Shown: positions 59,296 through 61,214 of the stretch, one piece after another
How positions within the stretch are numbered: position 1 is the stretch's first letter
Layout: every line of letters starts with the position of its first letter
Source: Alkalihalobacillus sp. AL-G
GTDB taxonomy: Bacteria > Bacillota > Bacilli > Bacillales > Fictibacillaceae
NCBI RefSeq assembly: GCF_030643805.1
Contig: NZ_CP094656.1
Coordinates: 558,001 to 622,000 of the forward strand
Length of the DNA: 64,000 nucleotides
Direction of reading: 5' to 3'
The notes under the pieces: model-generated
Seen by the model: only the letters and a program-made list of their open reading frames with translations
What the model was told of the DNA's origin: nothing
Database searches by the model: none
Made by a program: the position numbers and the translations under genes

Positions 59296-60033
59296 ATGGA
59301 ACAGATTGCAGTCATTTCTGATGTTCATGGCAACATACCAGCCTTAGAAGCAGTTCTTAATGACATTGAACGCAGAGGTATCGAGAGAATCATCTGTCTT
59401 GGTGACATGGTCGGAAAAGGACCTTGCTCAGAACTGGCAGTCGATATCGTACGTGAAGGTTGTGAGGTTGTAGTTAGAGGAAATTGGGACGATTCGATTA
59501 CGAAACCTGCTGAAACGGAGGTGGGAACGTACTACCAAAACCAGCTTGGTCAAGATCGACTCGACTATTTGAAAACACTTCCTTATTCCGTTCAGTTTTG
59601 GATGAGTGTCCGTTTTGTCCGGCTTTATCACGCATCCCAGGAAAGTGTGTATACGAGAATTCACCCTAGTCATCCACATGAAACACGTCATGCCATGTTT
59701 GAAAATACAGATGCAACTGGGGAGGGGCCAAATGGGATCGAACCAGACGTAGTCGGTTATGGGGACATACATAATGCCTATATTCAGCATCTAAGAATCG
59801 GGAGTGTCGGTAATCCACTTGAACGAACGGACGCATCATACGCAATATTGGAAGGGGATTACGGTGACGATCGTCCTGGCATGTTCAATGTACAGCTTGT
59901 GCGGGTACCTTATGATATAGAGCTTGCGGTAGCTCAGGCAATCGAAAGAAAGGTGCCTGAACTGGAGTATTATCTTGTGGAACTTCGAACAGGTGTCTAC
60001 CGAAGATCCCAAAAGAAACTGGCTCATCAATAA
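59296..60033 (+). CDS. metallophosphoesterase family protein
   Basis: A 245-residue calcineurin-like phosphoesterase: ISDVHGNIPALEAVL (metal ligands D and H), CLGDMVGKGP, VVRGNWDD (GN-D/H motif variant GNWD), and VGYGDIHNAY in place of the usual GHTH. ATG 59296 follows GAAGGAGGGGG; the upstream extension lacks a site. The substrate is unknown. Confidence 0.86.
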   Translation: MEQIAVISDVHGNIPALEAVLNDIERRGIERIICLGDMVGKGPCSELAVDIVREGCEVVVRGNWDDSITKPAETEVGTYYQNQLGQDRLDYLKTLPYSVQFWMSVRFVRLYHASQESVYTRIHPSHPHETRHAMFENTDATGEGPNGIEPDVVGYGDIHNAYIQHLRIGSVGNPLERTDASYAILEGDYGDDRPGMFNVQLVRVPYDIELAVAQAIERKVPELEYYLVELRTGVYRRSQKKLAHQ

Positions 60034-60098
60034 TGATGTTTATTCAGGCTTATTATAGGAATACTTTTAAAAGACTTTAATGAGAGGAGGCGTTAGCT

Positions 60099-60563
60099 AT
60101 GAGTACTCAATTAGAAATTGGACAGCCTGCACCGGACTTTTCACTTTCTTCAACAAGAGGCGAAAAGATTTCATTGTCCGACTTTAAGGGCAAGAAGCAC
60201 GTATTAGTCGCCTTTTACCCATTAGACTTCACCCCTGGATGAATTAAGGAAATCACCTCTTGGAAAGAGGACTTCAAGCAATTTGAAAACAGTGAAACAG
60301 AGCTTCTTGCGATCAGCGTCGATCACATTTACGCACACAATGTATTTGCGGCAAGCCTAGGTACCCTTCCATACCCGTTATTATCTGATTGGCATAAAAA
60401 AACGGCCAAGGAGTACGGGGTGTTTAACGAAGAGTACGAAACAGCGAAACGGTCGGTCTTTTTAGTGGATAAAGATGGGGTTGTCCGTTTTAAAAACACT
60501 ACCTTTGATGCCAATGATCGTGATCAATACTTAGAGGTGTTCTCGAATTGCGAAAGGTTATGA
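60099..60563 (+). CDS. probable selenocysteine-containing peroxiredoxin (AhpC/TSA type)
   Basis: Reading TGA at 60240-60242 as selenocysteine gives a 154-residue thioredoxin-fold peroxiredoxin. It starts MSTQLEIGQPAPDFSLSSTR and continues SLSDFKGKKHVLVAFYPLDFTPG, then U48, IKEITSWKEDFKQFE, ISVDHIYAHNVFAASLG and KRSVFLVDKDGVVRF. Residue 48 is exactly the peroxidatic position of the conserved PxxxTxxC motif (P41, T45). The frame after TGA is fully open and well conserved in style for over 100 codons. A SECIS-like hairpin follows. AGAGGAGG precedes the ATG. A conventional caller would split or miss this gene. Confidence 0.82.
60243..60270 (+). promoter_or_regulatory. candidate bacterial SECIS element
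   Basis: CCTCTT (60256-60261) and AAGAGG (60265-60270) form a perfect 6-bp stem with apical loop GGA. The loop begins 19 nt after the UGA and has G in its first two positions. Both features fit the published bacterial SECIS pattern (short loop with an early G, roughly 16-37 nt from the UGA). Confidence 0.7.
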
Positions 60564-60620
60564 ATTTAGCACGTAATCGTCGGAAATAGATGAACTAAAC
60601 ATGAAGCAGGAGTGGTAGAA

Positions 60621-61214
60621 ATGGACTTAACCCGGTTACAGCAGCAAATGTCGTTTTTATTGGAAATTGATCAGTTGAAAAACGTGTTGCGTCAGACGTA
60701 TGTCTCCGACCGATCTCGTCGGGAAAATGATGCTGAGCATTCGTGGCATTTAGCGATGATGGCCTTAACGCTTGAGGAATATGCGAATGAAAAAAACATC
60801 AACCTCCTTCACGTCATTAAAATGCTGCTCATTCATGATCTTGTTGAAATTGATGCAGGAGACACGTTTGCTTATGACAATAAAGGTTATGAAGACAAGG
60901 ATGAACGTGAGCGGGAAGCGGCGGATCGCATATTTAATCTGCTGCCGGAGAATCAGGCTGCGCACATTTTTGATTTGTGGGAGGAGTTCGAAGCTCGCGA
61001 AACGCCAGAGGCAAGGTTTGCGGCAGCTCTGGATCGGTTACAGCCAATGCTATTGAATTCGATTACAAAAGGTGCATCCTGGCAAAAACACGATATTCGT
61101 AAGGAACAAGTCCTGAAGCGGAATGCTCAAATTGCAGAGGGTTCAAAGGATCTTTGGGAATACGCGCAAGCTGTCATTGAGGATTCAGTGGAAAAAGGAT
61201 ATTTGAAGGTTTGA
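60621..61214 (+). CDS. HD domain phosphohydrolase (YfbR-like 5'-nucleotidase family)
   Basis: A 197-residue HD protein: RRENDAEHSWHLAMMALTL (metal His), LLIHDLVEIDAGDTFAYD (HD pair and the following E/D), and an ARFAAALDRLQPMLLN segment. It resembles YfbR/HDDC2-type deoxynucleoside monophosphatases. ATG 60621 with CAGGAGTGG upstream is preferred over GTG 60612. A terminator follows. Confidence 0.85.
   Translation: MDLTRLQQQMSFLLEIDQLKNVLRQTYVSDRSRRENDAEHSWHLAMMALTLEEYANEKNINLLHVIKMLLIHDLVEIDAGDTFAYDNKGYEDKDEREREAADRIFNLLPENQAAHIFDLWEEFEARETPEARFAAALDRLQPMLLNSITKGASWQKHDIRKEQVLKRNAQIAEGSKDLWEYAQAVIEDSVEKGYLKV

Follow-up and report, generated by a model that had tools for sequence, protein, structure and literature searches.

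The gene at 60099–60563 of the window (the whole 64,000-nucleotide stretch analysed, positions 558001–622000 of a single-contig genome of 4,155,898 bases) appears to encode a selenoprotein, a peroxiredoxin whose nearest solved structure is AhpE, with selenocysteine (Sec) as its peroxidatic residue. We put the probability of this reading at about 0.96 and infer the presence of Sec in the protein: the in-frame UGA is very probably read as Sec because the genome holds the Sec machinery and relatives keep both the codon and the hairpin behind it. All window features described here lie on the forward strand.

A probable ribosome-binding site (GGAGG, 60086–60090), read from the sequence, lies 8 nt 5' of the ATG. 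As the first-pass annotation had proposed, one peroxiredoxin frame runs through 60099–60563, interrupted solely by the TGA of codon 48 (60240–60242) and followed by 106 sense codons and a TGA at 60561–60563, giving 154 residues if this last codon is the stop. With cysteine put for the UGA residue, the frame scores 125.3 bits against the AhpC-TSA family PF00578 (cut-off 26). The PxxxTxxC/U active site is present (P41, T45 and residue 48, in PLDFTPGU), as is the conserved arginine R118, which we take to be the catalytic Arg of peroxiredoxins. Codon 48 had been described as the position of the catalytic Cys, with an alignment of residue 48 proposed as a check; the peroxidatic column is Cys or UGA in 34/34 aligned, chosen homologues, and every listed homologous locus has TGA, TGC or TGT at this codon. 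The gene thus has the pattern of a bacterial selenoprotein, an in-frame UGA where homologues have Cys. Codons 3' of the TGA are under strong purifying selection, of the same kind as those 5' of it: past the TGA, the comparison with the nearest relative gives a dN of 0.059 with synonymous sites saturated, and that between two further orthologues (L055 and L056) a dS of 0.31 and a dN of 0.012. A dead tail is therefore excluded, and the 106 downstream codons are intact and family-like with no further lesion, as first described.

TGA occupies codon 48 in all 33 orthologues found (at least 52% identity), one of them plasmid-borne. This number comprises 26 from 34 genomes of the family, two new ones from 398 Bacilli genomes drawn from a larger group, four from named genomes and the plasmid form. 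Each of the 26 family orthologues holds one TGA, at codon 48, and their distribution follows genus lines (8/8 genomes of the strain's own genus, 18/18 of a second genus and 0/8 of two others). The 398 Bacilli genomes gave four matches at E 1e-35 or better, all four with TGA and two of them already counted. Loci L062–L066, whose codons equal those of L033–L036 and L038, were left out of the count. Named carriers include Pseudalkalibacillus decolorationis, P. salsuginis, Halalkalibacter urbisdiaboli, Litchfieldia alkalitelluris, Evansella tamaricis and Bacillus taeanensis. The strain had been called a member of the Bacillaceae; its nearest relatives, two of them named Pseudalkalibacillus, would place it instead in the Fictibacillaceae. 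The genus is probably Pseudalkalibacillus, on the basis of two congeners whose gene is identical to that of a named Pseudalkalibacillus, the other congeners being filed as Bacillus, Alkalihalobacillus and Rossellomorea.

The plasmid form (L163:2977-3462, NZ_CP019641.1) is carried by a mobilizable Planococcus lenghuensis plasmid, is 62% identical and has its TGA in the same place. It is annotated as one CDS across its TGA, so that normal annotation need not miss such a gene, as the first-pass annotation had supposed it would. Plasmid searches returned 12 records at E 1e-20 or better and, of the two read, one (H1) has TGA and the other (H5) a Cys codon; six pattern matches were found on viral contigs, none of them confirmed.

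Of 132 loci encoding a relative, 80 were kept, with TGA in 13 (nine Bacillales, four Chloroflexota) and TGC or TGT in 67. These loci were picked out by exact matches to peptide patterns taken from the query, a procedure that can miss orthologues lacking them. Cys homologues in this set are at most 50% identical and no close Cys form showing a switch from Cys to Sec was found among the 80. The statement that all orthologues carry TGA depends on where the limit of orthology is drawn, as Cys is already present in the homologue ranked next, which is 50% identical.

The genome carries the machinery needed to read UGA as Sec. Whether it does so was left as a check by the first-pass annotation, for which a complete lack of the machinery would have counted as refutation, and all four components are present: a tRNA-Sec with anticodon TCA (57.7 bits, cut-off 47), selB (354 bits), selD (413 bits) and selA (561 bits), each above its cut-off and all within ~9 kb (2.040–2.049 Mb). 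Together with the TGA or Cys found at residue 48 in homologues, this supports the selenoprotein interpretation first put forward. The selD gene has an in-frame TGA of its own (KGGUGCK), as do 14/14 SelDs from 15 fetched sel clusters, the fifteenth cluster being without SelD. A rhodanese-domain protein, which we take to resemble the selenouridine synthase MnmH/YbbB, is encoded ~6 kb before tRNA-Sec. Between selB and selD lies a PhnDCE-like (phosphonate-type) ABC transporter (L018:11438-13868), made up of a substrate-binding protein (PF12974, 245 bits), a permease and an ATPase. It is found inside 10 of the 15 fetched clusters (six from the strain's own genus, four from the second carrier genus of the Sec peroxiredoxin) and is absent from five (the second cluster of one congener, and four from the two genera without the Sec peroxiredoxin); our literature search gave no title on a PhnDCE-like transporter in sel clusters among the matches listed.

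Across the family, selA, selB and tRNA-Sec were each detected in 32/34 genomes. One genome (G030, gene locus L034) has the TGA gene with none of the three detected, and a DNA search of it with the 18-kb sel region matched just short repeats like those near the end of the region. Three other genomes (G022, G028 and G029) retain flanking parts of the region, including a small gene which presumably corresponds to yneF, and G030 lacks these too. In G022 neither the machinery nor the orthologue is present, with the flanks in place. The failure of the whole 18-kb region and its flanks to match points to, without proving, an assembly gap in G030, which we consider the likeliest explanation, the alternative being a large deletion. 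A congener (G031, L152; 160 contigs, contamination given as 5%) carries an additional set of selB, selA and tRNA-Sec on a separate contig, with selD and the transporter absent in the 9 kb fetched; this second cluster is possibly contamination.

Behind the UGA lies a bSECIS-like hairpin (60256–60270) with a 6-bp stem, CCTCTT/AAGAGG, and a GGA loop (60262–60264). Stem length and loop agree with the first-pass annotation, which had the hairpin start 19 nt after the UGA; it begins 13 nt past the UGA, and 19 nt is the distance from UGA to loop. The bSECIS model quoted in PMC13188914 has an apical loop of 3–9 nt with G in the first two positions, 16–37 nt from the UGA, and the hairpin fits it in both loop and spacing. 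A bacterial SECIS search, also suggested at the outset, gave no match to Rfam RF00031 in the genome and none in any control either, and a full Rfam scan of 60000–60700 returned no SECIS family and one chance-level match, to a snoRNA family; these Rfam negatives do not argue against a bSECIS. On its own, the hairpin could have arisen by chance: its folding energy is unremarkable (two stretches gave z values of -0.85 and +0.09) and an equally good one stands behind 3.0% of the window's 2599 TGA sites, in a scan that admits only loops starting with GG.

It is conservation in orthologues that makes the hairpin convincing. All six pairs are kept in 32/32 aligned orthologues (29 distinct rows, 174/174 cells paired), and pairing falls to 66–67% when the partner strand is slid. 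The plasmid orthologue, excluded from this count, also has six pairs, the outermost being U-G. Both-sided changes occur at three of the six pairs, as many being reached in 1/500 shuffles, and the other three pairs are invariant; these changes are confined to two distant orthologues (L142 and L143). The variety of pair types in the stem is not unusual, as 90/500 shuffles match it.

A conserved stem might also be a by-product of a conserved peptide, with UGA still read as Sec and some other element guiding its insertion. The encoded peptide TSWKE is indeed nearly invariant, and on folding energy the hairpin does not reach significance. Synonymous sites, however, show almost no variation in this segment, in contrast to the rest of the gene: mean synonymous entropy is 0.25 bits over the five usable codons of 53–58, compared with 1.32 in 69 other constant codons and a degeneracy-matched expectation of 1.15 bits, a value as low being reached in 0/20000 draws and in none of 46 six-codon runs elsewhere. 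Furthermore, in orthologue L143 the peptide has changed from TSWKE to ALWKR, yet the six pairs are kept through both-sided changes. We therefore regard a by-product as very improbable.

The same observations bear on two explanations that do without Sec. Bacteria can decode UGA with near-cognate tRNAs, hence the codon could specify an amino acid other than Sec, or could end a regulated short product. Against such a reading stand the Sec machinery of the genome, the conserved hairpin with its compensatory change and fitting distance, and the Cys found at this position in all 13 Cys homologues aligned; we consider it very improbable. A Cys codon mutated to nonsense, or misread as such, would require a single base, TGA being one base from both TGC and TGT, and G030 has the TGA with no machinery detected; a pseudogene or sequencing error is nonetheless extremely improbable, given that all 33 orthologues share the TGA and that the codons on either side of it are under strong purifying selection. 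Selenocysteine at codon 48 remains the reading we adopt.

The second TGA, codon 155 (60561–60563), is taken as the stop. Its counterpart in 7/7 congeners is TGT (Cys), after which come a single codon and TAA; here ATT and TAG come next. The C-terminus carries a C-x3-C motif in 7/7 congeners, of which codon 155 occupies the last Cys position, and C-x2-C in 18/18 orthologues of the second genus; the plasmid form has one Cys, and 6/6 other, more distant orthologues have no Cys within the last 14 residues. A weak hairpin (TCGTC-GGAAATA-GATGA, 60577–60593) lies 13 nt past the second TGA, a suitable distance, with one as good behind 6.5% of the TGA sites of the window and a folding energy that is not unusual (z 0.21). 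Codon 155 could be a second Sec, making a double selenoprotein whose tail, C-x-x-x-U-I, would hold a selenol-thiol pair at the C-terminus, similar to the tail seen in Sec thioredoxin reductases and placed to resolve oxidised Sec48. We consider this unlikely, and adopt the plain alternative of a stop that trims two residues.

For codon 48 a working scheme can be proposed. The ribosome would reach the observed UGA of codon 48, SelB and Sec-tRNA(Sec) would bind the hairpin 13 nt on, and Sec would be inserted in place of termination. By analogy with the family, the selenolate of PxxxTxxU would reduce a hydroperoxide, and the resulting selenenic acid would in turn be reduced by a thiol. In Pseudalkalibacillus and the second carrier genus, resolution of the oxidised Sec may fall to a Cys or Cys pair near the C-terminus, and in the six distant orthologues an external thiol would serve, since their tails are without Cys.

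Of the solved structures, those of AhpE match best (Rv2238c/MT2298; E about 1e-25, residues 4–145). The likeness to AhpE consists in this match; the AhpE active site is Cys and not Sec in the alignment shown, and unlike AhpE many relatives of the codon-48 peroxiredoxin have a C-terminal Cys pair. The first-pass annotation had called the enzyme PrxU-type, a loose label that does not fit because the NCBIfam PrxU model, NF040737, gives 83.6 bits and its equivalog cut-off of 270 is unreached; PrxU belongs to the same superfamily, with 233 model positions compared with 154 residues here. None of the 14 listed NCBIfam models reaches its cut-off with the codon-48 peroxiredoxin. PrxU is reportedly the name given to a Sec-containing peroxiredoxin from Eubacterium acidaminophilum. 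The Sec peroxiredoxin from that organism figures among the references of PMC13188914.

Sec peroxiredoxins with TxxU are already known, and those in the available portions of the tables of PMC9312934 and PMC13188914 share with this enzyme the AhpC-TSA family, PxxxTxxU, and a UGA with a downstream hairpin; these portions give one reference protein for the family and name no Bacillales member. TGA at the same position was also found in 4/4 Chloroflexota peroxiredoxins (L082, L116, L117, labelled Dehalococcoidia, and L121), which differ in their motif, AWYVLAFTGGU, and are 39–42% identical. A tree was built from 34 chosen rows, including 19 of the 33 orthologues (the plasmid form among them) and two of the four Chloroflexota forms. 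The 19 Bacillales Sec forms group together with support 92/94 (not starred), apart from the two Chloroflexota Sec forms, in a tree that carries a long-branch warning and places the Cys homologues weakly; all Sec rows fall on one side of a branch in 19% of bootstrap trees. Either one or two origins of Sec in Bacillales and Chloroflexota peroxiredoxins are possible.

Other genes of this genome also contain in-frame TGA codons. PF00578 has 11 matches in the genome, of which three hold one TGA, the codon-48 gene included. An AhpC-like peroxiredoxin (L006:1429-2064) has UGA at FTFVU and scores 176.7 bits with the PrxU model (cut-off 270), and a ResA/TlpA-like protein with TPR-like repeats (L017:5469-6245) has the motif WASWURC and scores 114.5 bits with the WAxxUGC model (cut-off 300). 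Each is probably a further selenoprotein. Hairpins whose loops start with GG were detected behind the TGAs of the AhpC-like, ResA/TlpA-like and selD genes too, and hairpins as good stand behind 1.4%, 0.8% and 0.7%, respectively, of the window's TGA sites (2599 in all). The window itself has seven other frames of over 110 codons with exactly one TGA, under a filter that omits frames with two TGAs, the codon-48 peroxiredoxin included.

The codon-48 peroxiredoxin gene is genuine; its kind is already known, and in this lineage it can easily escape notice. A 2016 survey counted 91 Sec peroxiredoxins in 78 organisms, and Bacillales are not named for them in the parts of it covered here (PMC5029168). 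Among the papers searched, none dealt with selenocysteine and Fictibacillus or with selenium and Pseudalkalibacillus. The gene documents the use of Sec in bacilli, an order (Bacillales) credited with three selenoproteins in a 2006 survey (PMC1794560), and it belongs to an enzyme group in which every orthologue found (33/33) is the Sec form. The sel genes form a compact cluster, the minimal hairpin has undergone compensatory changes and the C-terminal thiols differ between lineages, which makes this group a test bed for how Sec peroxiredoxins are made and recycled.
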